Virus record (IMG/VR): IMGVR_UViG_3300031952_004728
Location: 1-23,753 of that record
Direction: 5' to 3' (one strand)
DNA from: a virus
DNA length: 23,753 bases
Below, one piece after another: positions 859 to 23,753 of this stretch. Position numbers and translations under genes: made by a program. The notes beneath the pieces were generated by a model, which worked only from the letters and a program-made list of their open reading frames with translations, did not search any database and had not been told where the DNA came from. How positions within the stretch are numbered: the first letter of the stretch is position 1; the number at the start of each line of letters is the position of its first letter.

Positions 859-2262
859 CTAGACTGCTCCCAATGACAGCCGCTGCTCGTAGACGGGCGC
901 TTTGCCGCCAGCCGAGTAGCGCATACTCAGACCGATCACTCGCCGCTGAGCGTTCGTCAGGCCAGCCGACTCGTCGGTGATGGCGATCACGTCGTATAGC
1001 TCCTGGCCGCAGTTCACCGGCACCACGATCTCGCCGCTCCTGGAGGCGATCTCCTGGTGGCGCATCTCGGCGTCGGCCCGGTCTCGGGCGCGAGCGACTG
1101 TGCCCAGGTTCAGGTCATCCACCTGGCGGACGCGGTCGTAGGCATCATCGATCTCATCCCAGCCGAAGGCTTCCACGAAGGGGCCGTCGCCAAACACCTG
1201 CACGCGGTTGGTCTGGGGGCGCTGGCTGCCGTAGCGGCCGCGGAAGATGGCGTGCTCCGTGCCGTAGGAGTAGGCGCTGGCCTCGTCGGCTCGGGGGTTC
1301 TTGATGTAGGCGAAGTGGCCGCGGAAGAAGACAACGTCGGGCACCACGGCCAGCAGGCGACGCACCGCAGTCGCCCCACTCTCGCCCGGGTGAATCGTGA
1401 AGCTGGGGTAAAGGTCAGTGATGACACCACTGCTGCCGGCGCTGAAGAACTCCAGGCTCGCTCGCGCCATGACGAAGGAGAGTAGCTGGAAGACGTTCCT
1501 TTCACCCTGGGCCCAGGCGCACTGACGACGCGACCGCCAGCCCTCCAGCAGCTGCCAGGCGTCGCGGGCGTGGATGACGAGGGTGGCCTCGCCTTCGCCG
1601 GAGGTGTATTCCCACCCCTCGATCCAGTAGGCGAGGCCCGAGGAGACCAGGGGGCCGCTGGCAGTCTGGTAGCCGGGGCTCACTCGCACCTCGCCGCCGG
1701 CCTTGATGACCGCCTTCTCCCCTGACAGGTCCAGGTAGCGACCATCATCATTGCGCAAGACCAGGCGAAGGCGGCCACTGTCGGGATCGGTTTCGGTGGT
1801 TAGCTCTAGGACGTCGGCTGTGACATCCAGTGCGGCCGCAGTGAGAGAGGCCTGCCAGACGCCCGAGGGGGTGGTCAGCCACACGTCGCTCGTGCTATGG
1901 GCGATGGCCAGGCCATAGTCGCTGACCAGATTCATGGGCACTGGCTCTCGCCAGAGGTTATCCGCGTAGTCGGCCGTGGCCAGCGAAAAGGAGAAGTGGG
2001 GGCGGGAATAGCTTTCGCTGCCCGTGTACTTCTCGACGAAGGTGAGGCGAAAGACGTCGGGGTAGGCCAGGGAGGGGGCGCGGAACTCCATGTTGGAGCC
2101 CGCGCTGGCCGTCGCCACCTCCCGCAGGGGTGACCAGGTGCCCACCGCCTGCGAGTAGCCGTCGCCGTAGATGCAGCTCCAGACCTTGCAGGCGCCCTGG
2201 CCGTCGCTGCCCGAAACCACCACGTTGAAGTCGGCCTCATACCGGCAGGCCAGCCCGCTCAC
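859..2262 (-). CDS. Split tail/adhesin gene, C-terminal part
   Basis: This is the 3' part of a large gene interrupted by the element. The frame is open through 2281, directly up to the 11-bp core. The annotated GTG at 2262 is simply a Val codon of the original gene that happens to follow the integrase stop in a GTGA overlap. The 467 residues are beta-rich. An early part is rich in aromatic and Ser/Thr residues (YSRPHFSFSLATADYADN). A later part (LRLVLRNDDGRYLDLSG, then YWIEGWEYTSGEGEATLVIH) resembles phage tail hub or tip proteins. Joining it to the frame at 23200-23753 gives WGSPAAWSNSLASVSGLACR with no stop. Whether the fragment is translated in the integrated state is unknown; it is probably non-functional alone. 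Confidence 0.75.
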   Translation of the reverse strand: MSGLACRYEADFNVVVSGSDGQGACKVWSCIYGDGYSQAVGTWSPLREVATASAGSNMEFRAPSLAYPDVFRLTFVEKYTGSESYSRPHFSFSLATADYADNLWREPVPMNLVSDYGLAIAHSTSDVWLTTPSGVWQASLTAAALDVTADVLELTTETDPDSGRLRLVLRNDDGRYLDLSGEKAVIKAGGEVRVSPGYQTASGPLVSSGLAYWIEGWEYTSGEGEATLVIHARDAWQLLEGWRSRRQCAWAQGERNVFQLLSFVMARASLEFFSAGSSGVITDLYPSFTIHPGESGATAVRRLLAVVPDVVFFRGHFAYIKNPRADEASAYSYGTEHAIFRGRYGSQRPQTNRVQVFGDGPFVEAFGWDEIDDAYDRVRQVDDLNLGTVARARDRADAEMRHQEIASRSGEIVVPVNCGQELYDVIAITDESAGLTNAQRRVIGLSMRYSAGGKAPVYEQRLSLGAV

Positions 2263-3809
2263 CGAGGCCAGGCTGTTGCTCCAGGCGGCGGGTCAAGATT
2301 TTCCCCACCATCTGGGGGTGGGATGACCCCGGGGATGGCACCTTCGATGGTAAGACTACCGTCGTCTTCGACCCACACGCGGTCAATCAGCTTGTGCATC
2401 CCAGGGTACGTTGGTCCGAGCGGGTGACCGAGAAGCGTGTACCCTGCCTTCCCTGCGGTGATGACGCGGGCGAGGCTGCGTAGGTTGTGTACGTAGTGTA
2501 AGAACCTCTCGGCGTCGGGGAAACGTTCCAGATGACTTATCTGGGTCTCGATGTCGGCACGTTCACGGGCGATCCTGGCGACCTCGGCGTCAAGTACCTG
2601 AGAGAATCCGCCCATCCGAACGTAGGTCTTTAGTGCCCGTTCGTGCTGTGAGTCGAGATTGCACAGGAGAGCGCGCAGGCGCTCCTCCACGTCGACCTGC
2701 TGGGTGTCGGCGCTGTATGCCCTTTGCTCATAGGTTACGGCTTCCCTCAGGAGGTTCTCAGGGTCGCCAACCGCTCGCTGCAAGAACTCCAGCACCCGGC
2801 CTTCCAACTCGTCGGCTGGCCAGTGGGTCTTGTAGACGCCCTCGTGAGACGGTGCCAACTCGCGGTAACGAACCCGACTGCCGCACCGATACTTGGCCTT
2901 GCCGCCGCTTTCGGACCCCTTCGTACTAACGTAGTAGAGACTCCCACATCGACGACAGAAGCACTTTCCCTTAAGCGCGTAGACGCCCTTAGGTTTGGGA
3001 CCACTGTGTATCCTACGTCGTTTCAGTGCGCTCTTGGCAGCCATCTGGGTGTCTTCGTCCACGAGTTCGGGGCAGGCCATCGGGCGACCGGCGTAGGTGG
3101 CTTTGCCGGCGTAACGCGGACTCGTCAGGATGCGGTAGACCATGGTGTGGTGCCACCGCTGAGCACGTCGTTCGACGTTCCGGTGGTTTGGCACAGGCAC
3201 GCCGCGTTCTTGAAGCTGGTCGGCGATCTCCTGGATGCCCTCACCTGCGAGGCAGTGGGCGTAGACCCAGCGGACAATGCCTGCCTCCCAGGGGTGGGGC
3301 TCCAGAGCGAGTCCTGAGCTGCGTTGGTAACCGTAGGGCGGAACGTTCGAAATGTAGGCACCCTTTTCCACCGCGCGGTAACGTCCCTCGCCCATGCGCC
3401 GGGCGATTACTTTGCGCTCGAGTGTGGCGACGCCCATCATCATCGTGAACATGAACTCGCCTTCCGGCGTGTCATCGAATGATTGACTTACGAATTCCAC
3501 CACCACCTTGAGTTGTTTGAACTCACCCATCGCCAACAGCGCCTCTACCGTATCGCGTCCCAACCGGTCGGCGCAGTAGACGATGACGTGGTCGAAGACC
3601 TTGTTTGCGGCTGCCTCGAGGAGACGTCGCCCGGCCGGTCGGTCTTTGAGTGCTATCGTGCCGCTGACGCCCTCATCGGTAAACTCGTCGACCACCGGGT
3701 ACCCCTTTGCCTCGGCGAAGTCTCGAGCGTCGATAAGTTGTGTCTCGATGGTGTTTCTTTCAGCCTGGGCGTCGGTGCTGACCCTTGCGTAGATGACGGC
3801 GTTGTTCAT
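2259..3809 (-). CDS. int: Large serine integrase (host-derived C-terminus in this state)
   Basis: This large serine recombinase (516 aa) joins phage and host attachment sites through a Ser-DNA intermediate. The resolvase domain (1-150) has the nucleophile Ser11 in YARVST and the conserved DRLGRD (81-86). The recombinase domain follows (PPYGY 157-161). A zinc-ribbon-like segment has C283, C285, C288 and C309, with no evident fourth partner after YRCGS. A long coiled-coil-like stretch covers about 375-425. The usual family end is near 495. The att core codes residues 506-509 (DPPP), and the last seven (GATAWPR) come from the interrupted host gene. In circular form the frame would continue 54 codons to a stop at 23055, giving 563 aa. 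ATG 3809 follows the stop of the previous gene by 1 bp. Confidence 0.95.
   Translation of the reverse strand: MNNAVIYARVSTDAQAERNTIETQLIDARDFAEAKGYPVVDEFTDEGVSGTIALKDRPAGRRLLEAAANKVFDHVIVYCADRLGRDTVEALLAMGEFKQLKVVVEFVSQSFDDTPEGEFMFTMMMGVATLERKVIARRMGEGRYRAVEKGAYISNVPPYGYQRSSGLALEPHPWEAGIVRWVYAHCLAGEGIQEIADQLQERGVPVPNHRNVERRAQRWHHTMVYRILTSPRYAGKATYAGRPMACPELVDEDTQMAAKSALKRRRIHSGPKPKGVYALKGKCFCRRCGSLYYVSTKGSESGGKAKYRCGSRVRYRELAPSHEGVYKTHWPADELEGRVLEFLQRAVGDPENLLREAVTYEQRAYSADTQQVDVEERLRALLCNLDSQHERALKTYVRMGGFSQVLDAEVARIARERADIETQISHLERFPDAERFLHYVHNLRSLARVITAGKAGYTLLGHPLGPTYPGMHKLIDRVWVEDDGSLTIEGAIPGVIPPPDGGENLDPPPGATAWPR
2282..2292. repeat. Left attachment site core (attL)
   Basis: CAGGCGGCGGG is identical to 23219-23229. 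It lies within the last codons of the integrase (Asp-Pro-Pro-Pro) and in the tail-gene segment Pro-Ala-Ala. The exact crossover dinucleotide within these 11 bp cannot be read from the sequence. Confidence 0.85.
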
Positions 3810-3810
3810 G

Positions 3811-4059
3811 CTAGTTCACCCCCGGCGGTGCGGTAAGGATGAGATCCGCGACGTTAGCGCAGAATCGGTCCGCCCTGATCTGGGCCTCGGGCTCCAGCGG
3901 TACGAAGGACTCCCGGCCCGACAGTCGCCACACGTGATGGCGACAGGCTGGGTTGGTGCACCTGAGTAACGACGCGGTGCCTTCGGGGGTAGTCCGAGTT
4001 GTGTTGTAGCGCCGACGCAGGTGGCCCTTTCCGTTGCATGCTGGACATGGTGTACTCAT
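3811..4059 (-). CDS. Ogr/Delta-like zinc-finger protein (82 aa)
   Basis: The Cys pattern is C5-x2-C8-x25-C34-x4-C39 (PCPACNG ... RCTNPACRHH). This is very close to the C-x2-C-x22-C-x4-C arrangement of the phage P2/P4 Ogr/Delta late-gene activators. A similar basic Arg/Thr-rich stretch lies between the pairs. The C-terminal half is helical and acidic. It sits immediately before the integrase (1 bp gap), and its ATG overlaps the stop of the gene before it (ATGA). By analogy it could be a transcription activator bound to RNA polymerase, but only the zinc-binding pattern is visible. The Ogr likeness is inference from spacing. Confidence 0.75.
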   Translation of the reverse strand: MSTPCPACNGKGHLRRRYNTTRTTPEGTASLLRCTNPACRHHVWRLSGRESFVPLEPEAQIRADRFCANVADLILTAPPGVN

Positions 4060-4328
4060 CGCGGTACCTTCTCCCCAGCCACGAGGCTAACCCAGACCTC
4101 GGGCAACCGGAAGGCCTGCCGGAGAACGTCAAACTCGTCTGGCGTCAGTTCCAACGTGATGCCGGTGTGCCCGTCGCTAACAGAGACGAATCGTTCAGGC
4201 GAGCAGTTACAGTTCGGAAGACCACAACCGCAGTTACTGAGCCGAAGGAACGGCTCTTGTATCTGCGACCCGCCGCCCGTCTGGGCGTTCTCAGCGTCGG
4301 TGCGAATCTGAAATGTCTCAGCCCTCAT
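4056..4328 (-). CDS. Cys-cluster hypothetical protein (90 aa)
   Basis: ATG 4328 is chosen because GGAGGAAG precedes it at good spacing; longer in-frame extension only runs through the upstream gene. It overlaps the upstream gene's stop by 11 nt, and its own stop overlaps the next ATG (ATGA). A compact Cys cluster occurs in the middle (SNCGCGLPNCNCS, residues 31-43). It is followed by a segment that could form a small alpha/beta fold (ITLELTPDEFDVLRQAFRL). The LTPDEFDVLRQAF part resembles short helical protein-binding motifs. The family is not recognised. Operon position with the integrase suggests a role tied to element maintenance. Confidence 0.7.
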   Translation of the reverse strand: MRAETFQIRTDAENAQTGGGSQIQEPFLRLSNCGCGLPNCNCSPERFVSVSDGHTGITLELTPDEFDVLRQAFRLPEVWVSLVAGEKVPR

Positions 4329-5070
4329 CGTCTTCCTCCTCTTCGTCACGACTCTCGTTATCCAGGAACTTGACCTCGATGCTGACCGGGTGTCCACCGC
4401 TGTCATATCCGACGGTGACCGGGTAGGACCCGTCGCCGAAGCCGGTTCCACTGACCGCACCCTTGGCGAAGGCGAAGAACTTCAACTCGTTGTTCCACTC
4501 GCCGTCAGGACCCTTGTAGCGCTCGAGTAGTGCGTTGTAATCCAGGGGGAATGAGGTGACGCACCCGACGAACATCTGTCCCGAGTCCACACCGTTGTGG
4601 CAGAGGCATCGCTTCTCATGGACCGGACCAGCGCCACACCGCGTTGCGCGGAGGACCTTGACCCTTGACCCCCAGGAACCCTCGTCGCTGACGACCGCTT
4701 CGGCGATCCATCCGCCGTGACAGTCGTCGAGGATGAGACCCAGTCTGTCCAGGCCCTCCAGGGTGTCATTGGTGTCGATGTAGCACGGGTCCGCGACCAC
4801 GATCTTGTCCTGGACAGTGAACCCGATGGCCTCGCCCGTCGCTTGTTCATCTACCTGCACGTCGTCCTCTTCGATGTCGCCCTCGTCGTAGGCGTACTCC
4901 ATGGTGACCGCGAGCAAGTGGTTGTAGTCGCCGTCGGTGGCGCGAGCAAGATACTCGTCAGCAGCCTCTGACTGATCACTGCGTTTCAGCGCCTTGGACA
5001 CCCGTCCCAGGATGCTGTAGGCGTTACTGTCCTCGCCGACTAGCTTGACCCTAACCTTGGTGTGTGCCAT
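4318..5070 (-). CDS. Two-domain phage protein, DUF4241-like C-terminus (250 aa)
   Basis: The first 65 residues (MAHTKVRVKLVGEDSNAYSI ... LGRVSKALKRS) match the style of a small stand-alone phage protein with K-L-V-G-E-D-x-N-A and a short helical repeat. An acidic linker follows. The C-terminal part has ADPCYI, GSWGSRVKVL, NGVDSGQMF and GTGFGDGSYPV. This run of motifs is typical of a domain I associate with DUF4241-type proteins of phages and bacteria. The biochemical role is unknown. The last ten residues are almost all acidic. The next gene starts within its 3' end. Family assignment is from memory of motifs and is moderately sure. Confidence 0.75.
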   Translation of the reverse strand: MAHTKVRVKLVGEDSNAYSILGRVSKALKRSDQSEAADEYLARATDGDYNHLLAVTMEYAYDEGDIEEDDVQVDEQATGEAIGFTVQDKIVVADPCYIDTNDTLEGLDRLGLILDDCHGGWIAEAVVSDEGSWGSRVKVLRATRCGAGPVHEKRCLCHNGVDSGQMFVGCVTSFPLDYNALLERYKGPDGEWNNELKFFAFAKGAVSGTGFGDGSYPVTVGYDSGGHPVSIEVKFLDNESRDEEEEDDEG

Positions 5071-5075
5071 TTAGT

Positions 5076-5393
5076 CTAGACCTCCTCTGCTTGAATGGGT
5101 TGCCATCGCCATTCCCCTGATGGGCCTCGTAGAGCAACCTGGATACGTTTTGTGTCTGTCTCCAACCACGCAGTCGCAGAATGATATGAGAGCACTCCGA
5201 CGAAAGCGCCGCTGGAGTTGACTACCTCGATTTGACCGAACTTGTTACGAATCGCGTCGCCATACCCGGCCGGTGTGATGACCTTGTAAAGCGGAACTAC
5301 GCGGCAACGTCGGTTCCTGACGTAGAGTGCCGAGGACTTCTGGAAGGTTCGTATCCAGTCGGCGTTTGCGCGGTCCTCTTGCACCGTCATCAT
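5076..5393 (-). CDS. Hypothetical protein (105 aa)
   Basis: ATG 5393 directly abuts the TAA of the upstream 43-residue gene, and a second ATG follows at once (5390). The preceding AGAGG fits either. The protein is small, with a basic patch in the middle (YVRNRRCRVVPLYK) and beta-rich segments toward the end (IEVVNSSGAFVGVLSYHS, then IQVALRGPSGEWRWQP). This suggests a small SH3-like or beta-barrel fold. No known motif is recognised. It is part of the tightly packed minus-strand integrase operon, 5 bp before the 250-residue gene. Confidence 0.65.
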   Translation of the reverse strand: MMTVQEDRANADWIRTFQKSSALYVRNRRCRVVPLYKVITPAGYGDAIRNKFGQIEVVNSSGAFVGVLSYHSATAWLETDTKRIQVALRGPSGEWRWQPIQAEEV

Positions 5394-5525
5394 TTACCTC
5401 TGACAGTAGTGACAGGCCTGCGCGGACCCTCGTCGGGGGCATGGGCGTTTTGGGTCCCGCGGCTTCCGCATGTCGCCTGTCGTGCAATCAACGGGCTTGT
5501 TTACCCAGCCAGATTTGTCTGTCAT
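5394..5525 (-). CDS. Small Cys-containing protein (43 aa)
   Basis: ATG 5525 shares its A with the stop of the gene before it (TGATG). GGAGAGG lies about 8 nt ahead. The TAA is directly followed by the next ATG. The sequence is basic and Pro-rich with four Cys (C14, C29, C38, C41), the last two as CHYC at the C-terminus, so a small metal site is possible. The length is below common annotation cut-offs. Support comes from coupling on both sides plus a ribosome binding site; function is unknown. Confidence 0.6.
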   Translation of the reverse strand: MTDKSGWVNKPVDCTTGDMRKPRDPKRPCPRRGSAQACHYCQR

Positions 5526-5641
5526 CAGATTCGCCTCTCCAAGGCCTGTCGAATCATGACCGTGAGTAGCGAAACAGAGAATCCGCCCGAGGCCTGGCTG
5601 CCCGAGCGGGTCCCCTGTTGCCTGATGGAGGTGTGTGTCAT
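5525..5641 (-). CDS. Small leader gene of integrase operon (38 aa)
   Basis: The frame from ATG 5641 (preceded by AGAGAGG at 10 nt) to the TGA that overlaps the next ATG encodes 38 residues. It starts MTHTSIRQQG, has a Gly/Ser-rich middle, and ends in an amphipathic or hydrophobic helix (SVSLLTVMIRQALERRI). It would be the first gene of the minus-strand operon. No family is recognised. Support is the start/stop overlap and ribosome binding site, with no alternative gene in the interval. Confidence 0.45.
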   Translation of the reverse strand: MTHTSIRQQGTRSGSQASGGFSVSLLTVMIRQALERRI

Positions 5642-5755: not shown

Positions 5756-5764
5756 GGGTAAAGT
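5756..5764 (+). promoter_or_regulatory. GGGTAAAGT promoter element before 5771 gene
   Basis: GGG-TAAAGT ends six bases before the GTG start at 5771. It matches the GGGTAYAGT element found before several other genes here. If TAAAGT is the -10, transcription would start at or near the GTG, giving a leaderless message. No good -35 is seen. Confidence 0.45.
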
Positions 5765-5770
5765 AGATAT

Positions 5771-8230: not shown

Positions 8231-8583
8231 CGAGTCCAGCAATGGTAGCGGTTGTGTTCACGCTTAAACATCGGGGCCAAGTTCTCGGGGCGGTCATCGG
8301 TGTGAATCCCGTTGATGTGGTGAATCACGAACCAGGAGTGCAGAAGGTGATGATGAGTGAACTCCCAGATCAGATGCGAACGCATGACATAACCGCTCTT
8401 GTTGGTGTAAGGATGCTGGGGACAGAATATCCTCTCCCCCTTGCCGCTATTTCGTTTCCAAGAAGGTTTTCCGCGCGTGGCGACGCTGATAATGACACTC
8501 ACATCTGGTTGACAAATGCAACAACAGGGGTGTGCCTTACCACAGGACTTAACCGAGTAGTCTTGTTTAGTTCTGGTTCCCAC
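8227..8583 (-). CDS. HNH homing endonuclease (118 aa)
   Basis: The N-terminal Cys module (C14, C20-C22, C24 in CGKAHPCCCICQPDVSV) is related to that of the 5771 and 13379 proteins (CGxxxxxCxxCxPE/D). The catalytic HNH motif is HHINGIHTDDRPENL (H88-H89, N91, N101) with a final H110. CPQHP and GYV before it are shared with the 13008-13379 protein. The gene is antisense within a plus-strand run, as expected for an inserted mobile gene. GTG 8583 is the start by comparison with its paralogues and lies 5 nt after TATAGT. Confidence 0.85.
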   Translation of the reverse strand: MGTRTKQDYSVKSCGKAHPCCCICQPDVSVIISVATRGKPSWKRNSGKGERIFCPQHPYTNKSGYVMRSHLIWEFTHHHLLHSWFVIHHINGIHTDDRPENLAPMFKREHNRYHCWTR

Positions 8584-11034: not shown

Positions 11035-11183
11035 GCACCCGAAAGCCAGGACAGCGCGACCCCAAGGCACCGGACATCCCGACGTCCCCGACGCCCATGG
11101 ATGATGCCACTCGAGAAGGCATCCTGAGGTACCTGGGACGCCATGACGTAGGACCGATGACGAGCAAGGATAAGAGACAATGA
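11031..11183 (+). CDS. Small hypothetical protein (50 aa)
   Basis: This 50-codon gene is coupled at both ends by ATGA overlaps, with the HTH gene before and the collagen-like gene after. It is Pro/Asp-rich at first ([20 protein letters not shown]) and ends basic ([10 protein letters not shown]). Support is positional and there is no recognisable motif. The two exact overlaps make it very likely translated. Confidence 0.65.
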
Positions 11184-11854
11184 GAGCACCGACACGGGTG
11201 GAACATTTGCGACGAAGTGGCACACGCGGACACGTTGATGACGAGCCTGTGACCTACGTTCAGCGTGCGCCGGCAACCCCAATGCAGAAGGCGACGACGA
11301 GCGAGGCAGCGGACCTGCTGAACGCCCTAAACGAGTTTCTGGCCGAGGCGAAGGCGGCTGCGGCGACCATCCAGGAAGAGCGAGTACAGCGAGTCGAGCG
11401 CGGCGAGCGAGGATTCCCCGGTCCACCCGGCAAGAGCATCGTCGGTCCACCCGGCCCACCCGGTGAGACCATCGTTGGTCCACGAGGCGAGAAGGGCGAC
11501 AGCATCGTTGGTCCGAAGGGCGAGAAGGGCGACAGCGTTGCTGGTCCACCCGGCCCTTCTGGCCCACCTGGCAAGACCGTTGTTGGACCGAAGGGCGACA
11601 AGGGTGACCCAGGACGTGGCAACATCAGCGTGTTCGGTGGCGGGGGCTTTGCGGTAGACAAGACTCCTCAGCCAGGCGACGTCGTGATCCGTGGCGAACG
11701 GCACCAATGGACAGTCATCCCCAAGACCGAACTGATAGCGAGCGGGGAGGGCATCCTCTCAGATCCCCCATCCGGGTGCTGTCGGGTACTGAACATCTAC
11801 AGAGACGAAGACGGAAAACTGGCTGTTGCCTATGAGGACGTTCCGGTCGAATGA
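11180..11854 (+). CDS. Collagen-like phage protein (224 aa)
   Basis: After a helical, probably coiled-coil segment (about 43-72), residues 75-148 carry Gly-X-Y collagen repeats ([19 protein letters not shown] and similar). They are interrupted at regular places by a five-residue step ending in Ile-Val or Val-Ala. A globular C-terminal domain of about 75 residues follows ([20 protein letters not shown]). Coiled coil, collagen trimer and C-terminal head is a common plan for phage fibres and some bacterial adhesins. It would form trimers. The ATGA start and ATGA stop show tight coupling to both neighbours. Confidence 0.85.
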
Positions 11855-12210
11855 GCCAGAAACAAAAGCCAGAGACCTGGAGTGTCTACCAGAGCATAGA
11901 CACCGAGGTAGTTCTGCCGGATTGGGTGGACTTCGCGGTGCTGCACTCGACAGGCGTGGCGATTGTGGGCCGGCGCGAGAATGCGGAACCACCGCGAGTG
12001 ATGACCATCCCAGGACTAGACGAGCAATTCACGCGGCTGGGGCCGGCGAAGAGACCGGACGGTTACAGACTCTCGGGACACGTGAACGGAGCGGACATCA
12101 TGGTCATAGAAGTACCGTTCGGGATCCATCCAGCACTCACCTTGATCGCACAGCGAGACGAACCCGTAGCGGTGACAGAGGCAGGCGATGAGCGTGAAGG
12201 CAGGGAGTAA
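11851..12210 (+). CDS. Hypothetical protein after collagen-like gene (119 aa)
   Basis: The ATG at 11851 overlaps the previous stop (ATGA). The protein is beta-rich ([20 protein letters not shown], then [19 protein letters not shown]) and ends in a charged helix. No signal peptide or catalytic motif is seen. It overlaps the next gene by 23 nt in another frame. It may be a fibre partner or chaperone because of its coupling to the collagen-like gene, but that is inference. Confidence 0.65.
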
Positions 12211-12442
12211 ACGCTGCCCACCTCATTACTTCCTCGTGGACACGCCGGCAGGACCGACCAGCGATGGGCGATGTAAGAAGTGTGGTGAGGTGAGAACGTT
12301 CTGTAACACCAATCCCGAGAGACTTCAAGACATGGTGATGAGGGCCAGGATTGGATGCGCAGCGAAGGCACAGTGGGCGCGATTTCGAGCCGAGAGAGAC
12401 GCACACAGAGATGCAGAGGCAGACGGTGAGAGCCGAGGCTAA
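12188..12442 (+). CDS. Small zinc-knuckle protein, GPTS-C-x2-CGE type (84 aa)
   Basis: ATG 12188 lies in the previous gene. The motif HYFLVDTPAGPTSDGRCKKC (residues 13-32) continues as GEVRTF, with C29-x2-C32. It is the same module as in the 22774-23058 protein (HHWLLDTPCGPTCEDVCKLC), so the two are paralogues within the element. The C-terminal half is helical, Arg/Ala-rich and differs. A single CxxC knuckle plus His suggests one zinc site. Function is unknown; I associate this motif with short proteins in Chloroflexota and their phages, from memory. Confidence 0.7.
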   Translation: MSVKAGSKRCPPHYFLVDTPAGPTSDGRCKKCGEVRTFCNTNPERLQDMVMRARIGCAAKAQWARFRAERDAHRDAEADGESRG

Positions 12443-13007: not shown

Positions 13008-13379
13008 TTAGAGGGGGTAGCCAGTGTGTTGTCGTAAGGCCTCGTGATAGTGATGATGCACTGAATCGGTGGGGAAAAGTGTGAAGTTCTCGATTCGATC
13101 ATCATCCTTGATTCCGTTTCGGTGGTGGACAATTTCTTCTCTTGTCAAGAACCGTCCCAGGTGGAACTCCATGACAAGACGAGAGCGGCAAACATAGCCC
13201 GTAATCCTAGCATGAGGATGTTGTGGACATCGAATGTGGGCACGGCCATTACTGTAAAGGAGTCCGCCCCGCCAATGAGGATTCTTGTTGCCATGACGCT
13301 TCTTGCCTTGGGCGACGCTGATCTCAGGATGACAAGTTCCGCACCAGCCGTTAGTTACGCCACAGATATGCTTACCCAC
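13008..13379 (-). CDS. HNH homing endonuclease (123 aa)
   Basis: The N-terminal module MGKHICGVTNGWCGTCHPEI is nearly the same as in the 5771 protein, and the first 27 nt differ at one base only. Here it is fused to an HNH domain: CPQHP (51-55), GYVCRSRLV, then HHRNGIKDDDRIEN (H85-H86, N88, N97) and H110. It cuts DNA as an HNH nuclease by family knowledge. GTG 13379 is the start, supported by the paralogue and by TATAGT six bases upstream. It stands antisense to the gene before it and looks intact. Confidence 0.87.
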   Translation of the reverse strand: MGKHICGVTNGWCGTCHPEISVAQGKKRHGNKNPHWRGGLLYSNGRAHIRCPQHPHARITGYVCRSRLVMEFHLGRFLTREEIVHHRNGIKDDDRIENFTLFPTDSVHHHYHEALRQHTGYPL

Positions 13380-14461: not shown

Positions 14462-15829
14462 TTAGTAGGAGGGCTTCTCAGGCTTCGTTGCTCGCCACAC
14501 CCCGACACCTTCACCGACGACGAGACCATGTCGCTCGAGTTCAGTCATGTCTACCTCGAGACGGTCGGGATGATAGTCGTCTCCATACCCCAGCCGTTCC
14601 AGTAACTGATCCTTGTTGAGAGGTCCGTCGGCGTCTTGTAGGATTCGAAACAGCGTGAACTGCCTCGTCTTGAGTCCGTCAAGGCGTGGGTCAGGTGGTG
14701 GTGGGGGCGACAATGGTCTAGGTTCTGGCGGGGCCGCTCGTTCTTTCGGTGCGTATCCCAGGCGATCAAGGAGCTGGCCGGCTGCCCCACGTACTGACTT
14801 GAGGGACTTCACGAGGTCTGTAGAACCGCCGGTGTCACCAAATCGTTCGACGGCGTGAACGAAGTCGAGTCCGTGTCTAATCACGGCATCCTCAGGATCG
14901 CGACGTCGCGATGGGGCAGCGGATGACTTGGATTTTGGTGCTGAGTCAATGACCGCGTCGGGTGCGAGAACCTGTACCTGAGCCTCCGTAAAACTGCCCT
15001 TTTCGCCGCCCTGGATGAGGTTGATGAGTTGCTCGGCCTTGTCCTGGTCGTTCTGTTCGGCGCATAGTCCGGCGACAACCGCGCGAACCGCCTGGGTTGG
15101 CACGAAGCCTCTAGTCGTCTCTTCGGCGAGCTTGTCAACCAGCGACTGTCGGTGCGCCGGCGGGCATCGGCGACGGATGATAGCCACGGCGTCTCTGGTT
15201 AGTTGGTCTTCACTGAGTGCTGTCTGAAGCGCCGGTGGCACGTCGTCGGGGTCAACATAGGCATCCGAAATGCGTCGACTGACCCACATGGCAGACTTGC
15301 CCACCAGCAGAGCTAGTTCACGGGTGCTGCCCGGTTCAAACCCTGGGGGTCTACCGCCCTTAGGGTTTTTGTAACGCGATGTTACAGGAACCTCCAACAT
15401 TGGAAGTTCCCCCTGGCGACGAAGGTCACGTAGGTGAACCAGCGCGTTGGAGGCATCCCTGTCGCCCAACTCGTTGTGCTGAAGGTTTTCGATGACCTGC
15501 CGCAGGAACCGTTGTGCCGGCGTAAGGCCAGTAACACGCAGAACGGGCACCGTCTTGAGTCCGGCCTTGAGAGCACCGCGCCATCGCAGTTCGCCCGTCA
15601 CGATGATATTGTCGCCGTTAACCTCAATCGGTTTGATAACGCCGCGCCCCGGGGTGATAGTTTCCAGCCGCGTGATGCTGGCGGCCATGTCGTTGATCTC
15701 TTCCTCGCTGATGTCCCTGCGTGGCTGGTTGGGGTCAGGTTTAAGAGACTTAGGACTGACGTACTCGATGACAACAGGAGACTGACCGTCAGGTTTCTCG
15801 TTGACGACAGGAACGTCGGGCTTAACCAT
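14462..15829 (-). CDS. parB: ParB-like partition/regulatory protein (455 aa)
   Basis: The N-terminal ParB/Srx domain has PDPNQPRRDIS (about 31-41), ITPGRGVIKPIEV and GELRWRGALKAG in place of the canonical GERRxRAA box. Next come IENLQHNELGDRDA, the ENLQRxDL motif, and an HTH (STRELALLVGKSAMWVSRRI). A Gly/Pro/Lys-rich insert (PKGGRPPGFEPGS) precedes the HTH. A Pro-rich linker leads to a C-terminal winged-helix-like part (FTLFRILQDADGPLNKDQLL). The canonical role is parS binding and DNA segregation with ParA. No ParA or canonical parS is seen, so a regulatory or partner-dependent role is possible. ATG 15829 is chosen over GTG 15838 because AGAGGAG then has normal spacing. Confidence 0.88.
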   Translation of the reverse strand: MVKPDVPVVNEKPDGQSPVVIEYVSPKSLKPDPNQPRRDISEEEINDMAASITRLETITPGRGVIKPIEVNGDNIIVTGELRWRGALKAGLKTVPVLRVTGLTPAQRFLRQVIENLQHNELGDRDASNALVHLRDLRRQGELPMLEVPVTSRYKNPKGGRPPGFEPGSTRELALLVGKSAMWVSRRISDAYVDPDDVPPALQTALSEDQLTRDAVAIIRRRCPPAHRQSLVDKLAEETTRGFVPTQAVRAVVAGLCAEQNDQDKAEQLINLIQGGEKGSFTEAQVQVLAPDAVIDSAPKSKSSAAPSRRRDPEDAVIRHGLDFVHAVERFGDTGGSTDLVKSLKSVRGAAGQLLDRLGYAPKERAAPPEPRPLSPPPPPDPRLDGLKTRQFTLFRILQDADGPLNKDQLLERLGYGDDYHPDRLEVDMTELERHGLVVGEGVGVWRATKPEKPSY

Positions 15830-15830
15830 A

Positions 15831-16172
15831 CTACTCACTCCTCTTAGGTTCTAGGATGGCGCACAGGTTATCCAGCGCCTGCCGTACTGCCGGCCGGCTG
15901 CCAAATTGAGACACATACTCCGATGCCAGCAGGGTGAAGGCCTCGAGCGCGAAGGCGAACGATAGCAGTTCCGTCGGCTGGGCCAGCTTCTCGTCACGCT
16001 CGATGTAACGCGCCAGCAGACACGTGACCTGAGCGAGCGTCAGGTGAGGGTTCTGAGCGGCCACGAGATTGATGGCGTCGAGGTATGAGTAGTGTCCGAG
16101 GTGGGCGACGCGAAGGAGACGTGGATCAATCCACTCGACGAGACCGTTAGACCCGGGTTTGTTCTTGGTCAT
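15831..16172 (-). CDS. Helical hypothetical protein upstream of ParB (113 aa)
   Basis: ATG 16172 follows GAGAGGAAAG. The frame is open upstream but overlaps a small leader ORF. The protein is all helical (YLDAINLVAAQNPHLTLAQV, then LLSFAFALEAFTLLASEYVS). It sits directly before parB, with a 1-bp gap between stop and ATG, where ParA would be expected. There is no Walker motif, so it is not ParA. It might be a small ParB partner, but that is only positional. Confidence 0.65.
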   Translation of the reverse strand: MTKNKPGSNGLVEWIDPRLLRVAHLGHYSYLDAINLVAAQNPHLTLAQVTCLLARYIERDEKLAQPTELLSFAFALEAFTLLASEYVSQFGSRPAVRQALDNLCAILEPKRSE

Positions 16173-16640: not shown

Positions 16641-16964
16641 TTATTCCTTTGGCGTGGCCCAGCGACAGTTACCCGGCTCGTAATCGCCATCGTTGTCGGG
16701 ATAACGGTCAATGGTCATGCCCTCTGGTCGTTCGCCCATGTCGGCCAAGAAGTTCTCGAAGACCTTCCAGCGTTCACAGACCCTGATTCCCCTGCCACCG
16801 TAGTATTTGTTATTTAGGTCGCGACAACGACTAAGCATGCTGCGCCAAGTGTAGTAGGTCGGTTGCGGACGAGGTTGACCACCACGACGCTTGGCCTCTA
16901 GCCAAGCAGCGGCAGCATACACAGCGGCTTCTCTTGATTCTCTGTTAACGGGACTTGTGGTCAT
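16641..16964 (-). CDS. AP2/HNH-type homing endonuclease-like protein (107 aa)
   Basis: Residues 36-107 follow a widespread phage family: [60 protein letters not shown], then [12 protein letters not shown]. The family is linked to AP2/HNH-type mobile endonucleases. The N-terminus ([10 protein letters not shown]) is helical and variable. ATG 16964 has AAGAGG at 6 nt. An alternative start at 17105 overlaps the previous stop (ATGA) and would add 47 basic residues; it lacks a good ribosome binding site. The protein ends soon after the last motif, so it may be slightly short. Confidence 0.8.
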
Positions 16965-17101
16965 TGAGAACCTCTTTATGATCACACCCGCGGGGATACC
17001 CCTTGAATTACCAGATTTTGATTCTGTGCGCCGTTCACGTCTGGAAAAGCATCCTTCTCTAGATACGGGTGCACACTTCGACAGAAAAGCGTCGCTCGGC
17101 G

Positions 17102-17374
17102 TCATCCTTGTGCCCCAGATATGTTCTCGGGCGTCACCAGTACAGGGTCGCCAACATGCACGGACACGCCGACGAGCTTCTTGCTCTGCGTCATGATGTC
17201 AACCGCCACGATCAGTCGGTGTCTGCGGATCGGCGCGGTCCACTTGCGCAGTCGGGCGGCTTGCTGGCGATGGGCGACGTTGACGTATTTCTTACGCTTG
17301 GAATAGTCTGGCTGGAGGTCAAGTCTCTCTTGGCAACCACATGCACAGTACTTTTTACGTCTTCCTTTTGGCAT
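17102..17374 (-). CDS. Cys/His-containing hypothetical protein (90 aa)
   Basis: The N-terminal motif [12 protein letters not shown] (C10, C12, C14) followed by [17 protein letters not shown] is a small metal-binding pattern seen in short phage proteins. The C-terminal half is beta-rich ([20 protein letters not shown], then [12 protein letters not shown]). ATG 17374 has GAGGAGGG at about 8 nt. It is the first gene of the minus-strand block and is divergent from the cassette island at 17.58 kb. Function unknown. Confidence 0.65.
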
Positions 17375-17731: not shown

Positions 17732-18076
17732 ATGCATGATATCGTGACGAACGCCCTCCCGCTTGGAGGGGGCGTGGTGGTCGGAGGAGTCATAACCCTC
17801 GTCAGTTCATGGGTTTTCTACTGTAGGACTGCCAAGGATCTGGAGCGTGAGGCGGCGAAGCTCAGAAGGCAGAACACACTGATGCTGCGTGTTATGGAAG
17901 AAGGCGGGTTAGCCGAATTGAATCAAGACGAATCCGGCGAATTCACCGGTATCATTTTCAAAGGAGGCGCGTGCCTGAAGGGTCGCGCGTCCCTGAGGGC
18001 CTCGGGGACGGTGGTTGAGGGCCAGCGGTCGTCAGTGGGAGCACCGGATCAAAGCATCGGCAATCAGAATGGCTGA
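17732..18076 (+). CDS. Membrane-anchored coiled-coil protein (114 aa)
   Basis: Residues 8-30 form one membrane helix (ALPLGGGVVVGGVITLVSSW). A charged coiled-coil-like segment follows (CRTAKDLEREAAKLRRQNTL, 31-50, continuing to about 57). The C-terminal half is Gly/Ser-rich and beta-like (GIIFKGGACLKGRASLRASG). GGAGGAG lies upstream of ATG 17732. This plan (short N-terminal anchor, coiled coil, Gly-rich tail) recalls small proteins I know from Chloroflexota genomes, from memory. It overlaps the methyltransferase start by 8 nt, so the two are coupled. Confidence 0.65.
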   Translation: MHDIVTNALPLGGGVVVGGVITLVSSWVFYCRTAKDLEREAAKLRRQNTLMLRVMEEGGLAELNQDESGEFTGIIFKGGACLKGRASLRASGTVVEGQRSSVGAPDQSIGNQNG

Positions 18077-19739
18077 ACTAAAGACCAACGTCCTCTACTA
18101 TGGCGACAACCTAGACATTCTGCGGAATCACATCCCGCACGAATCGGTAGACCTTATCTACCTTGACCCACCGTTTAACTCCAACCGCTCGTACAACGTG
18201 CTCTTCCGCGAATCCGGCGGTGCGAGCAGCGAGGCGCAGATCGAGGCGTTTGAGGACACCTGGCGGTGGGGACCGACGGCGCAGGGAGCCTACGAGGAGG
18301 TTATGACGGGGCCGCATCAGCAGGTGGCGCGGACGCTGCGAGCGATGGTGGACGGCCTGGGCCACAATGACGTCACCGCCTACCTGAGCATGATGGCCAT
18401 CCGCCTGGTGGAGTTATACCGGGTGCTGAAGCCTACCGGCTCGATGTACCTGCACTGCGACCCGACAGCCGGACCGTACCTGCGGGTGCTTATGGACAGT
18501 ATTTTCGAGGTCAAACGCTTCCGTAACGAAATCGTCTGGAAGCGCACCCACGCACACAGCGGAGCCAATCGTTTCGGTGCCGTCCACGACACGATCCTGA
18601 TGTATGGAAAGTCCGAACAGGGGACTTGGAACATTCAGACAACCGCATACAGCGCACAATATTCCGAGACATTCTTCCGGTTCGCCGACGATGATGGGCG
18701 ACGGTATCGCTCGACCATCCTCACCGGTTCCGGGATTCGACACGGGGCATCCGGGGAGCCGTGGCGCGGGATTGACCCGACCGCATCGGGCCGCCACTGG
18801 GCGATTCCCGGATATGTGCGACCGCTTCTCGGCGATGCCGCAGATGCTGATGTGCAGGGTGCTCTTGACCGTCTTGATTCGATAGGTCGCATCCTCTGGC
18901 CGTCCAAAGCTGGCGGAATCCCCTCGTTCAAGCAATACATCGATGACATGGCGGGCACGCAGATCAACGATGTCTGGACCGATATACCGCCCATCTCGGC
19001 ACAAGCTAAGGAGCGACTGGGTTATCCCACTCAGAAGCCCCTTGCGCTCTTGGAGCGCGTCATCACCGCATCGTCGAACCCCGGCGACGTCGTGCTCGAC
19101 CCGTTCTGCGGCTGCGGTACCGCTGTGCACGCCGCCCAGAAGCTCGGCCGCTGCTGGATCGGCATCGACGTCACCTATCTGGCCATCAACCTCATCGAGC
19201 GCCGCATGACCGACGCCTTCCCAGGCCTGGCAGTGGAGGTAGAGGGGGCTCCGAAGGACTTCGCTAGCGCCCGCGATCTGGCCCACCGCGACAAGTGGCA
19301 GTTCCAGTGGTGGGCGCTGACTAGACTAGACGCGCAGCCAGTTGCGGGAAAGAAAAAGGGCTCGGACAAGGGCATCGACGGTGTCATCCCCTTCTTTGCC
19401 GGTCCCAAGGAGGACTATAAACGAGTGATCGTCTCGGTGAAGGGCGGCGAACACGTCAACGTGGTGATGGTGCGCGACCTGAAGGGTGTCCTAGAACGCG
19501 AGAAGGAGTCCATCGGCATTCTCCTGACACTCGCGCCGCCCACCAAGGACATGGTCACGGAAGCAGCGGCGTCGGGATTGTATAACAGTGAGTTCTGGGG
19601 TCGTAAGTTTCCGCGGCTCCAAATCATGACAATTGAGGAAATGCTCGGCGGCAAGAAGCCAGACATGCCCTGGGGCAAAGTCCCGTTCGCCAAGGCACCG
19701 ACGGAAAAAGAGAGGGGCGAGCAGGAGACTCTACTATGA
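18069..19739 (+). CDS. Beta-class DNA methyltransferase with fused Mrr-like nuclease domain (556 aa)
   Basis: Motif IV LDPPFNS (32-38) precedes TQKP (321-324) and motif I DPFCGCGTA (344-352). This order marks a beta-class N6-adenine or N4-cytosine methyltransferase. After about 405 an Mrr/PD-(D/E)XK-like domain follows: DKGIDGVIPF (D437), VIVSVKGG (S456-V-K458), then VRDLKGVLEREKESIGILLT and TLAPPTKDM. Proteins with this fusion are thought to both modify and cut DNA, or to sense modification. ATG 18069 is chosen because an upstream extension only overlaps the 17732 gene; start and stop overlap as ATGGCTGA. The stop overlaps the micropeptide start (ATGA). All key residues look present. Specificity is unknown. 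Confidence 0.92.
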   Translation: MAELKTNVLYYGDNLDILRNHIPHESVDLIYLDPPFNSNRSYNVLFRESGGASSEAQIEAFEDTWRWGPTAQGAYEEVMTGPHQQVARTLRAMVDGLGHNDVTAYLSMMAIRLVELYRVLKPTGSMYLHCDPTAGPYLRVLMDSIFEVKRFRNEIVWKRTHAHSGANRFGAVHDTILMYGKSEQGTWNIQTTAYSAQYSETFFRFADDDGRRYRSTILTGSGIRHGASGEPWRGIDPTASGRHWAIPGYVRPLLGDAADADVQGALDRLDSIGRILWPSKAGGIPSFKQYIDDMAGTQINDVWTDIPPISAQAKERLGYPTQKPLALLERVITASSNPGDVVLDPFCGCGTAVHAAQKLGRCWIGIDVTYLAINLIERRMTDAFPGLAVEVEGAPKDFASARDLAHRDKWQFQWWALTRLDAQPVAGKKKGSDKGIDGVIPFFAGPKEDYKRVIVSVKGGEHVNVVMVRDLKGVLEREKESIGILLTLAPPTKDMVTEAAASGLYNSEFWGRKFPRLQIMTIEEMLGGKKPDMPWGKVPFAKAPTEKERGEQETLL

Positions 19740-20618: not shown

Positions 20619-21716
20619 GTGGACACAATTCGACTACAAGAACTGAAAGCACTCGTTCTGGAGCAACTGGAGCAACACCCCGTTCTGAAGGATATCTACT
20701 CTCACAGATGGGTGGAGGAACAATTCACGGCGGGACAAACCCGCGGGTTTCACCCAGCCGTTCAGATTCTTCTGGGATTCACGTGCGGCCCGCGACTCGC
20801 GGCGGGCATGGAGAAAGCCTGGCTTGCGCTCACCGGCCAGAGGGAACCCGGGGACATACACAGCCGTCGCTCACGGCTCCGTGGCTCCCCTGACCGTTCA
20901 TGGCGCGACAACCACAGAGACTGGTGGTCATGCATCGCCGAGGTCTACCTGGCAGCCTACCTCGTGACCCAAAGGTACGGCGTCCAACTCTCCAAAGGCG
21001 ACGGGCCTGACCTCGCTCTGTTCGCCGCACAGGCGGATCCCGTGGGCCACATAGAAGTGCACTCTCCTCGACAGACCTTGGAAGCCAGGGAATTCGACCA
21101 CCACCTATTTTGGGCCTTGCAGGACAAAGCCCCGCTCAACCTTTCCCTGACCGCGAGATCATCGTGGGCCTCGCTATCCCTCGCTGGCGACAACGCAGTC
21201 GCTCTGGCGCGCCGAGTGGCGCAGGTGTACGATACCATCACCCCAGCCACTCCTCTGCCTTTGAAGACATCCCTCACCCTTCCCAACAGCTCCGTCGACG
21301 TAGAAATCGGACCCGGCACGGGCAACTCCCCACACTACCCGCGCCAGGCCTCAACCGGCCCCAGCTTCCCCACCGCGCTACTCGAGGACATCATCGCCCG
21401 CGCGGAAGACAAGAAACGACAACTGTCGGCCGCTGACCGTTGGGCAGTTTTCGCCGTCGAGGTTGCGGCCTACGACCCGAAGTCCCTGTACATTCACCTG
21501 TTTGACACCGCAGCCCTGGACCACGCGGCGTTCCCCGCGGAGCTGCCGGACTACGTTGCTGGCCTCATCATCTGCGCCGTCAGCCTAACGGATGTGGCGC
21601 CGCACGCGGCGCTGGGCTTCCCAAACCCGCGCTCACGGTGGGCCCAAGATCCGTCCCTGCTAGAGATGCTGCGCCTCTTCCACCGCCCTCTCCGCCGCAA
21701 GGGTCGCACTAGATGA
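20619..21716 (+). CDS. Hypothetical protein, possible degenerate nuclease fold (365 aa)
   Basis: The start is GTG 20619, which gives a plausible helical N-terminus (MDTIRLQELKALVLEQLEQH); the ribosome binding site is weak. The segment DWWSCIAEVYLAAYLVTQRY (101-120), then GDGPDLALFA and VGHIEVHSPRQ, resembles PD-(D/E)XK spacing: E108, D131, E146-V-H148. His stands where Lys is expected. The rest (about 155-365) is mixed, with several Trp and no repeats. It follows a methyltransferase unit and may be part of a defence-type cargo, but the function is not established. Its stop overlaps the cofD-like start (ATGA). Confidence 0.72.
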   Translation: MDTIRLQELKALVLEQLEQHPVLKDIYSHRWVEEQFTAGQTRGFHPAVQILLGFTCGPRLAAGMEKAWLALTGQREPGDIHSRRSRLRGSPDRSWRDNHRDWWSCIAEVYLAAYLVTQRYGVQLSKGDGPDLALFAAQADPVGHIEVHSPRQTLEAREFDHHLFWALQDKAPLNLSLTARSSWASLSLAGDNAVALARRVAQVYDTITPATPLPLKTSLTLPNSSVDVEIGPGTGNSPHYPRQASTGPSFPTALLEDIIARAEDKKRQLSAADRWAVFAVEVAAYDPKSLYIHLFDTAALDHAAFPAELPDYVAGLIICAVSLTDVAPHAALGFPNPRSRWAQDPSLLEMLRLFHRPLRRKGRTR

Positions 21717-21882: not shown

Positions 21883-22021
21883 GTGCCAAGGTGGACCGAC
21901 AGACCAGCTTTGATGCGCTGAGTAGCTAACGACGGGGCAAAGTGGGCCTGCCCTGTGGTCCGTACTCCTGCCGAAAGTGCTCGTTCATGGTCTGCCTCAT
22001 CAGTGCTGGTTCCCCCAGCAG

Positions 22022-22043
22022 ACCCCGCCCATAGGGGCAGGGT
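22022..22043. terminator. Hairpin between convergent units
   Basis: ACCCCGCCC and GGGGCAGGGT pair over nine positions with one mismatch and a short loop, directly past the stop of the minus-strand gene at 22050 and facing cassette 3. There is only a short T-run on the plus side (GGTTTC). A bidirectional terminator is likely but weakly supported. Confidence 0.35.
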
Positions 22044-22049
22044 TTCGGC

Positions 22050-22484
22050 TTACGCGACGCCCTCCATGCCTGCCCCGAGGACGTGCCCCATGAGCGCGGT
22101 CTCGGGCTCGGTCGGGACTTCGGCGACAGGCTCGGCGACCGGCGCGGCGGGTGACTTGGCCTTGTGATGGGACCGCTTGACCGACTTGGACTCGGTCTGG
22201 CCGGCGCTGGCGATAAGGGCGCGTGTCTTGTCGGCGAGTGAGGAGTGGATGCGCAGGGAATTCGTCGGGTGCGCCGTGGGAGTGACGCCGTCACGCTTGT
22301 ACGCGTGTGCGGCTGCCAGCATGTTCCGCACGGCTCCGGGACTCGTGTCAAGAGTGTCGGCGAGAGCCTTCACTCGAGCGCTCGTGACCTTGCCGCCGAA
22401 GAGATCCACCAGGGTCTTGGCGTCCTCGTCCGACCACGATGTCTCTGTCTCGCGGGTCCTTGGCTTGTCTGTCTTGTTTGCCAT
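22050..22484 (-). CDS. SANT/Myb-like or HTH DNA-binding protein (144 aa)
   Basis: ATG 22484 has AGGAGG at 11 nt; a GTG four codons earlier overlaps that site and is less likely. Residues 16-60 (SWSDEDAKTLVDLFGGKVTS, then LADTLDTSPGAVRNMLAAAH) have the W-x2-E/D ... helix-turn-helix plan of SANT/Myb-type or short phage HTH domains. A basic stretch with Lys/His follows. The C-terminus is Ala/Pro/Glu-rich and probably disordered. In the circular form it would be the last gene of the integrase operon. It is a candidate regulator or excision-related factor. Confidence 0.65.
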   Translation of the reverse strand: MANKTDKPRTRETETSWSDEDAKTLVDLFGGKVTSARVKALADTLDTSPGAVRNMLAAAHAYKRDGVTPTAHPTNSLRIHSSLADKTRALIASAGQTESKSVKRSHHKAKSPAAPVAEPVAEVPTEPETALMGHVLGAGMEGVA

Positions 22485-22514
22485 TGTCTTTAGCACCTCC
22501 TCTCCGGCTAGAAT

Positions 22515-22787
22515 CTAGAGTTCGACTACCTGACGTTGTTGTTTTTCTGGCTGATCTGCTGAATATGGGGCACTGACGGTGAAGTGGGCGGCGTTGTTGG
22601 GCTCCCTACTGGGGAGACCGGAGACGGACAGTTCTGGAAATGCACCCCAGTAGACCTCACCCGGTTCTTCGTCTGGACCGTGTTCCCAGTGCCCGTGTGG
22701 GTCAATGTGTTTGTGCGAGTGAAGGATAGACCTTATACCTTCGCCCTTAAGTGCGTGCGAGTGCCACCATCGCTTAGGAGGTCCCAT
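22515..22787 (-). CDS. His-rich hypothetical protein (90 aa)
   Basis: ATG 22787 has AAGGAGG at 6 nt and overlaps the upstream gene by 14 nt. An open extension upstream only shadows that gene. The protein is His-rich in its first half (WWHSHALKGEGIRSILHSHK, then HIDPHGHWEHG), which may bind metal, and is acidic next. The C-terminus is Gln/Glu-rich. No family is recognised. Confidence 0.6.
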   Translation of the reverse strand: MGPPKRWWHSHALKGEGIRSILHSHKHIDPHGHWEHGPDEEPGEVYWGAFPELSVSGLPSREPNNAAHFTVSAPYSADQPEKQQRQVVEL

Positions 22788-23058
22788 CGTCGTCCTCCTT
22801 ACCGTCTTCGATATGGAACCCGAAGGGTGACCGCATCTTCTCGAGCGCTCCGAAGTGGCCATCGCGAAAGTACTCGTACTCCAACTCCGGGAAGGAATTC
22901 CGGAAGATCCGGCGCTCGCCGCAGAGTTTGCAGACGTCCTCGCATGTAGGGCCACAGGGAGTGTCGAGCAACCAGTGGTGGGCGTGGGGACCGATAACCA
23001 GAGGAACCGCTGGAACCGTCTTGATGCCTCTGAATTGTCCCGTTTCCGCGCGGTTCAT
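22774..23058 (-). CDS. Small zinc-knuckle protein, GPT-C-x3-C-x2-CGE type (94 aa)
   Basis: The motif HHWLLDTPCGPTCEDVCKLC (27-46) continues as GERRIFRN, with C35, C39, C43 and C46. It is paralogous to the 12188-12442 protein, with two extra Cys that could complete a zinc site. The C-terminus is acidic (EDGKEDDDGTS). In the circular form its ATG 23058 overlaps the stop of the long integrase (AGATGA), so it is the gene after int. Here it lies downstream of the broken tail gene. Confidence 0.72.
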   Translation of the reverse strand: MNRAETGQFRGIKTVPAVPLVIGPHAHHWLLDTPCGPTCEDVCKLCGERRIFRNSFPELEYEYFRDGHFGALEKMRSPFGFHIEDGKEDDDGTS

Positions 23059-23219
23059 CTGTGATTTTCCCCTTTCACTAAGTACGACGCCGCAGGGGTG
23101 TTCTCTGTTACAAGGGTGTGTTTCGGTGCCGGATAAGGCGTCGGCGTCGGATGCTCTAGACCGCTGCTGTTGGGAAGTCGGGCGGTGTAGTGGAGGGTGT
23201 CAAACCCTTCCGTTGTCAC
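23055..23219 (-). other. int: Detached 3' end of integrase gene (circular form)
   Basis: Read on the minus strand from the core, the integrase frame continues without stop for 54 codons: VTTEGFDTLHYTARLPNSSG first, then a Pro/Thr-rich part and YLVKGENHR. It stops at TGA 23057-23055 overlapping ATG 23058. In the integrated state this stretch is out of frame for the tail gene and has no start of its own. Frame, length (exactly 55 codons) and ATGA overlap together make chance unlikely. Confidence 0.8.
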
Positions 23220-23753
23220 AGGCGGCGGGGCTGCCCCAACTGCCGCCGCTGCGCTTCACGGCGTAGACGGTGCCCCCTACCGAGTAGATGAGGAGGACGG
23301 TGTTGTCAGCCTTGAGGTCGGCGGCAAGCCAGCCCACAGCGGACGCTGTCGTCGTTATCGCTGTGGCTGAGCCGAAGGTAGCGCCGTAGTCGCTGCTCTC
23401 CCTCACGTAGATCGTCTTGCCATTGGTACCCACGTAGAAAAGCAGCACCTGGGCCGCTCGACTGGCTAGGGCAACGCCGGCATTGGCGGCGGCCTCCACA
23501 AACGTCCAGTTGCTGAAGTTGCTGCCTGGGCCGGGGCTGGTCACCCGCTGGCGATAGAGAGAGCCGCTGTCCACACGGCAGCGGATGAGGGAGCCATCGC
23601 CGGGCATGGTGGCGGCATGATAGCTGTCGGCCTCGCTGCCCGAGTACAGGCGCTGCCAGTCCAGGCGACGGATGCCGCCGATCTGGTCGGTGATCTGCAC
23701 CTTCAGGTAAGGGATGGCGCTGGCACTCTTCTGGGCGGCGAGCAGGGCGGAGG
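23200..23753 (-). CDS. Split tail/adhesin gene, N-terminal part (5' end outside window)
   Basis: The frame is open from the right window edge (LLAAQKSASAIPYLKVQITD) through an in-frame Met-like GTG at 23700, so the true start is outside. The protein has repeated strands with Ser/Thr/Gly (TIYVRESSDYGATFGS, then VYAVKRSGGSWGSPAA) resembling BNR/sialidase-type beta-propeller blades. In the integrated state it ends with CDNGRV read from the element and a stop at 23200. Joined to the part at 859-2281 it would be a single long tail or adhesin protein. Confidence 0.75.
   Translation of the reverse strand, partial: SALLAAQKSASAIPYLKVQITDQIGGIRRLDWQRLYSGSEADSYHAATMPGDGSLIRCRVDSGSLYRQRVTSPGPGSNFSNWTFVEAAANAGVALASRAAQVLLFYVGTNGKTIYVRESSDYGATFGSATAITTTASAVGWLAADLKADNTVLLIYSVGGTVYAVKRSGGSWGSPAACDNGRV
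23219..23229. repeat. Right attachment site core (attR)
   Basis: CAGGCGGCGGG, identical to 2282-2292. To its right the tail-gene frame is intact; to its left the element begins. Confidence 0.85.

Follow-up and report, generated by a model that had tools for sequence, protein, structure and literature searches.

A large serine recombinase element in a phage structural gene, with a hammerhead-ended operon on the far side of its attachment site

Our analysis indicates, with a probability that we put at roughly 0.55, that the DNA studied here carries a serine-recombinase element lodged inside a tailed-phage structural gene, that the attachment site of this element (attP) lies between its integrase gene int and a hammerhead-ended operon of three small genes, A, B and C, and that integration would re-wire these genes to read-through from the phage operon. 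Throughout, the window means the whole stretch analysed, 23,753 nt of IMG/VR record IMGVR_UViG_3300031952_004728. The insertion site, the core, the empty site, the order of the genes, the phage structural context and the sequence and fold of the ribozyme are observed. As compared to the initial annotation of this DNA, the hammerhead at the 3' end of the A-C operon and the altered C-terminus of int are new.

Table 1. Features of the integrated element and of the gene that it interrupts (positions in the window)
Feature	Position	Strand	Remarks
int, large serine recombinase	2259..3809	-	516 aa when integrated, the last 7 supplied by the host gene; predicted circle form 563 aa
Genes upstream of int, tightly packed/overlapping	3811..5640	-	ORFs 5393, 5070, 4325 and 4059, and small ones 5640 and ~5527
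Candidate promoter region, AT-rich	about 5640-5811	-	AT content tops the element's windows
attP right arm / leader of A	23059..23218	-	C-rich; circle-only int extension (54 codons from 23219) or non-coding
ORF A	22774..23058	-	94 aa, Cys-pair (zinc-ribbon-like); codon signal z 4.4
ORF B	22515..22787	-	90 aa, no family; codon signal z 3.5
ORF C	22050..22484	-	144 aa, possible helix-turn-helix protein; codon signal z 6.0
Type II hammerhead ribozyme	21986..22050	-	starts at the C stop codon; Rfam RF02276
attL core CCCGCCGCCTG	2282..2292	-	int 3' end / interrupted-gene 3' half; equals attR core; empty sites in L002 and L003
attR core CCCGCCGCCTG	23219..23229	-	interrupted-gene 5' half / element
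Interrupted gene, 3' half	859..2292	-	94% aa identity to the L002 656-aa protein
Interrupted gene, 5' part	23200..23753	-	stop at 23200 inside the element; 95% identity to L002

The element and the gene that it interrupts

Counted with one copy of its core the element is 20,937 bp long. The core, the 11-bp sequence CCCGCCGCCTG, stands at both ends on the minus strand (23229-23219 and 2292-2282) and occurs twice in the window as against an expected 0.07 times. Two IMG/VR contigs, L002 and L003, carry the target gene uninterrupted; the left flank of the element (up to 2292) and the right flank (23219-23753) are 96% and 98% identical in nucleotide sequence to L002 and 90% and 88% identical to L003, respectively, and in each contig the flank alignments are continuous and have exactly 11 bp in common. 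When the flanks are joined at CCCGCCGCCTG the reading frame is kept, with ...GSPAA followed directly by WSNSLASVSGLA..., as in the 656-aa gene of L002. Both marks of a site-specific integrated element, a block of identity at its two ends and an uninterrupted target in relatives, are found here, and the empty sites together with the core bear out the premise of the initial annotation that the DNA is in the integrated state. A chimeric assembly is ruled out by the exact core and the two in-frame empty sites. The GC content is 66-67% in the left flank versus 54-64% across most of the element. Searches of IMG/VR with the exact attP-left and attR sequences for circles or other copies returned no match, and neither did a DNA search of INPHARED with the whole element.

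Since L002 and L003 carry the gene intact at the site, the element sits in a phage structural operon. That the interrupted gene belongs to such an operon follows from L002, where a major head protein (phrog_212, 7e-73) is encoded upstream on the same strand, and from a more distant contig, L004, which encodes a portal protein. According to the initial annotation, the three genes lie downstream of the broken tail gene and share its strand. Position and strand are as described, but the word 'tail' can be kept only as a presumption drawn from the position of the gene, as profile searches with the interrupted gene gave no family match; likewise, the structural operon is presumably a late one. In the integrated state the stop codon of int overlaps a GTG, in the form GTGA (2259-2262, minus strand), from where an open frame runs through the 3' half of the interrupted gene, and a C-terminal fragment of that gene might be translated by coupling from this site.

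No portal protein, capsid protein or large terminase was found among the scanned proteins of the element, which in this respect resembles a satellite in having no full virion set. It does encode a collagen-like protein with GXY repeats and weak matches to tail-fibre families (11180-11854, plus strand); this protein is possibly a part of the virion or of the adsorption apparatus in an element otherwise devoid of recognised structural genes. The ORF at 18057-19739 (plus strand) combines in a single protein a DNA methyltransferase (N6_N4_Mtase, 1.2e-41) and a C-terminal part similar to Mrr/NA-iREase. Genes resembling those of homing endonucleases (NUMOD3, HNH) lie at 5771-6283, 8227-8583 (recognised by eye), 13008-13379 and 16641-17105. 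Finally, the ORF at 14462-15838 (minus strand) encodes a ParB-like protein, whose N-terminal part is 30-39% identical to plasmid partition proteins and for which no relatives were detected in IMG/VR; a ParA was not identified.

The integrase gene and the operon across the attachment site

The integrase gene ends at attL, and ORFs A, B and C begin just within attR. Above the respective cut-offs the int product matches the Pfam domains Resolvase (PF00239, 5.7e-34), Recombinase (PF07508, 3.3e-13) and Zn_ribbon_recom (PF13408, 2e-8); it also matches phrog_95 (8.8e-97), carries the catalytic-serine motif as YARVST and is in all these features a large serine recombinase of the phage integrase type. 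Its family matches stop by residue 434. The relatives of int in genomes, from Clostridia and Bacteroidales, share only 25-40% identity with it and are unsuited to an analysis of synteny. Upstream of int, the N-terminal 60 aa of the ORF at 4318-5070 (minus strand) match phrog_1933, a family of unassigned function that occurs in Listeria and Campylobacter phages.

When the ends of the element are joined at the core, the ORFs starting at 23058, 22787 and 22484 follow int, as had been proposed for the circle. It had been proposed further that start/stop overlaps connect int to A, A to B and B to C. Such overlaps exist between int and A (ATGA) and between A and B (14 bp), but B and C are separated by a gap of 30 nt. 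Moreover, the overlap of int and A is a property of the circle that holds only by way of an extension of int: the frame stays open for 54 codons past the core, crosses attP and stops within the ATGA of A, yielding a predicted protein of 563 aa with 47 codons more than the integrated 516-aa form. As the int frame is open through attP to A, integration not only parts the genes but also alters the C-terminus of int. Then again, 21% of shuffles leave a 54-codon extension open by chance, and the codon signal of the extension (z 1.3) falls short of that in windows of equal length from known genes of the element (mean 3.8, 2.5th percentile 2.0). Because of this weak signal and the frequency of chance openness, the int-A overlap may be accidental.

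The codon usage of A, B and C resembles that of the other genes of the element (z values in Table 1), and C has an ATG at 22484 with a strong SD sequence, GGAGAGGAGG. ORF A has a paralogue in the ORF at 12188-12442 (plus strand; 40% identity over 50 aa, E 8e-12), and the small Cys-pair protein is thus present twice in the element. C had been annotated as a putative DNA-binding protein. This description can be retained in a weakened form, as C shows weak helix-turn-helix matches, to HrcA_DNA-bdg of Pfam (E 0.0012, short of the cut-off) and to phrog_1725 (E 0.005), and its model, generated with AlphaFold from the single sequence, has a helical N-terminal half at low confidence (pLDDT 57) and is too poor for a fold search. 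The same applies to the model of B, obtained in the same way (pLDDT 48). A peptide scan of IMG/VR revealed no homologues of A, B and C, the INPHARED phage collection contained none of A and C, and the three proteins display no RDF signature and no family membership apart from the weak matches of C.

Immediately behind C follows the ribozyme. It scores 45.9 bits against the RF02276 model (gathering threshold 37; E 1.2e-6) with every core position matched, and its minimum-free-energy structure is the hammerhead fold; the core motifs CUGAUGA, CGAAAC and GUC, the three stems and the type II permutation are all present. Cleavage is predicted after GUC, between 22021 and 22020, and the C mRNA would retain stem III at its 3' end. 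Because the gene beyond the ribozyme (20619-21716) is convergent, the ribozyme lies at an operon end, an arrangement that resembles 3'-end formation and not cutting between cistrons.

Expression of A, B and C in the integrated state

How, then, would A, B and C be transcribed when they are detached from int and lie co-directionally behind the broken structural gene? A consensus scan detected no sigma-70-like promoter before A, although the consensus may not be that of the host, and an intrinsic terminator on the same strand is not seen there either. A -10 element of the TANNNT type occurs nowhere in 23230-23059, and the leader of A ranks at the 61st percentile of the element in promoter score and at the 45th in AT content. 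With neither promoter nor terminator visible before A, read-through is the sole visible source of transcription for the three genes, and the earlier proposal that A-C lose their upstream promoter on integration agrees with the scan of the sequence before 23058, in which no promoter of their own appeared. We therefore favour the following course of events. In the circle, a single transcript starting at about 5700 would extend over int and A-C as far as the ribozyme. This transcript would be cut by integration, which would leave the promoter with int, so that A-C would be transcribed only via read-through from the structural, presumably late, operon of the phage, and the ribozyme would trim the 3' end of the A-C transcript. 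Judged from the arrangement of the genes and by analogy with known systems, a switch of expression from int-linked to late-operon-linked on integration is plausible, and the layout could enable the element to sense the activity of the virus.

More speculatively, one of the three proteins, perhaps C, might be a directionality factor or a regulator of excision or late expression, comparable to SprB, and excision would restore the interrupted gene as in helper-embedded PICIs. An element that disrupts a structural gene would profit from leaving at the onset of late transcription, and for this reason one of A-C may serve in such a role. In its fullest form this amounts to a helper sensor wired in cis: late transcription would switch on A-C including a directionality factor, the ribozyme would free their mRNA, and excision would repair the structural gene just when it is needed, while in the circle A-C would come under the int promoter and a longer integrase would be made. 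We consider this complete scenario quite improbable.

Two short blocks are common to the leader of A and that of the int operon. GGAAGGGTTTKACA occurs exactly at 5659-5672 and at 23198-23211 (both minus strand), hence in the int-operon leader and in the attP right arm, and TGTAACA..AACACCC is likewise shared by the two leaders. The blocks were found post hoc, with an alignment p of about 0.03; they might represent a common operator, a regulatory or promoter element, which would give A a promoter of its own, or an integrase site. They lend some support to the view that an unrecognised promoter in 23218-23059 drives A-C alike in both states and that their parting from int is a side effect, as in prophages with attP beside int. 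The attP arm contains a perfect TTGACA, which points in the same direction; the lack of any TANNNT, the unremarkable promoter score and AT content of the leader and the negative consensus scan all point away from it, and we regard a separate promoter as possible but doubtful.

The leader of A might also have the opposite effect. It contains a bubble of C over G (44% C and 19% G in 78 nt, within 23192-23115) that ranks among the top 0.7% of windows of the element on this strand, and ribosomes translating the broken gene would halt at 23200, leaving the next 140 nt or so untranslated. Because the 160-nt leader is C-rich and mostly untranslated when integrated, read-through could equally well stop there by Rho-dependent polarity. 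Integration would then silence A-C, which would be made only after excision, when translation of the 563-aa int covers the region; the int frame of the circle is indeed open right up to the ATG of A. However, the extension has a weak codon signal and a chance openness of 21%, Rho in the host is an assumption and rut sites are hard to predict. We rate silencing as unlikely, but as a serious alternative to re-wiring.

If the insertion were a decayed one within a defective prophage, it would have no regulatory meaning at all. The element is known from a single copy, has no recognisable phage structural genes and leaves its host gene broken, as would be expected of such a relic. Yet int is of full length with intact domains, the cores are perfect, A-C are open with coding signal and the ribozyme core is intact, which makes decay improbable. 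Finally, that the key change concerns int itself, whose last 54 residues are swapped for 7 on integration so that the circle (563 aa) and prophage (516 aa) forms would differ in directionality or stability, has parallels in the serine integrase SprA, the extreme C-terminus of which is part of the directionality switch according to the title of reference 51 in PMC8270828, and in the integration-dependent repressor of BPs with attP inside its gene (PMC4557955), but is very unlikely given the weak codon signal of the extension and the end of the family matches by residue 434, before the swapped part.

Relation to known systems

The preferred reading, an element whose A-C genes are re-wired to phage read-through, combines features of several known systems. 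Type II hammerheads occur frequently in phage contigs, with at least 120 loci among the matches listed, and it has been suggested that they divide long phage transcripts into mRNAs the length of an operon (Perreault et al. 2011, PMC3088659). The ribozyme described here shares with them the canonical type II core and the location in mobile phage DNA. It differs in that it ends an operon and faces a convergent gene, whereas a gene on the same strand comes next downstream in 84 of 109 type II hammerheads among the matches listed. An association of type II hammerheads with serine recombinases was not apparent: 2 of the 120 listed loci have a recombinase match, both more than 5 kb off.

In mycobacteriophage BPs, immunity depends on integration because attP is located inside the repressor gene (PMC4557955). 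There as here the position of attP makes integration alter the C-terminus of a protein, with regulation as the consequence in BPs; the protein concerned is however the repressor in BPs and the integrase, at the 3' end of its gene, in our element. The PLE of V. cholerae uses a serine recombinase, Int, and a phage-supplied RDF, PexA, ties its excision to phage infection (PMC6002521). It thus resembles our element as a phage parasite with a serine recombinase and, as far as our proposal goes, with excision tied to phage activity. Different from the arrangement suggested here, in which the tie would act in cis by transcription, PLE resides in the bacterial chromosome and obtains its RDF in trans, as a protein of the phage.

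A serine recombinase excises the skin elements of sigK from a sporulation gene, which is thereby restored. In SP-beta, attP is flanked by sprA and by sprB, which encodes the RDF (PMC8270828). Our element shares with these systems a large serine recombinase, an attP with the recombinase gene on one side and a small gene or operon on the other, the two being parted by integration, and an interrupted gene that excision would make whole again. Then again, its target is a phage structural gene instead of a sporulation gene, none of the known RDFs resembles A-C, and promoters are known for sprB whereas none is visible for A.

The closest precedent is the helper-embedded PICIs (HE-PICIs). These elements of Enterobacterales carry int, AlpA and primase genes, have integrases of a single clade made up of relatives of the 11capE integrase, and are inserted co-oriented into prophage late genes, the interrupted gene being delayed until excision (Tommasini et al. 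2023, PMC10111431). The element studied here is similarly satellite-like and sits, with a co-oriented integrase gene, within a structural and presumably late phage gene, with the head protein gene upstream in L002; this gene would be restored only by excision, and late transcription is proposed to read through into the element. It departs from the HE-PICIs in several respects. Its integrase is a large serine recombinase; family searches found neither an AlpA-like regulator nor a primase among the scanned proteins of our element; and our operon ends in a hammerhead inside attR, the words 'serine' and 'hammerhead' both being absent from the text of PMC10111431. Helper-embedded satellites have so far been described in Enterobacterales and with PICI integrases. 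If an unrelated phage harbours a version with a serine recombinase, an attP in the midst of the element's operon and a ribozyme at the end of that operon, this would suggest that hiding in a structural gene of the helper has arisen more than once, and the arrangement offers a cis-regulatory logic for the timing of the exit of such parasites.
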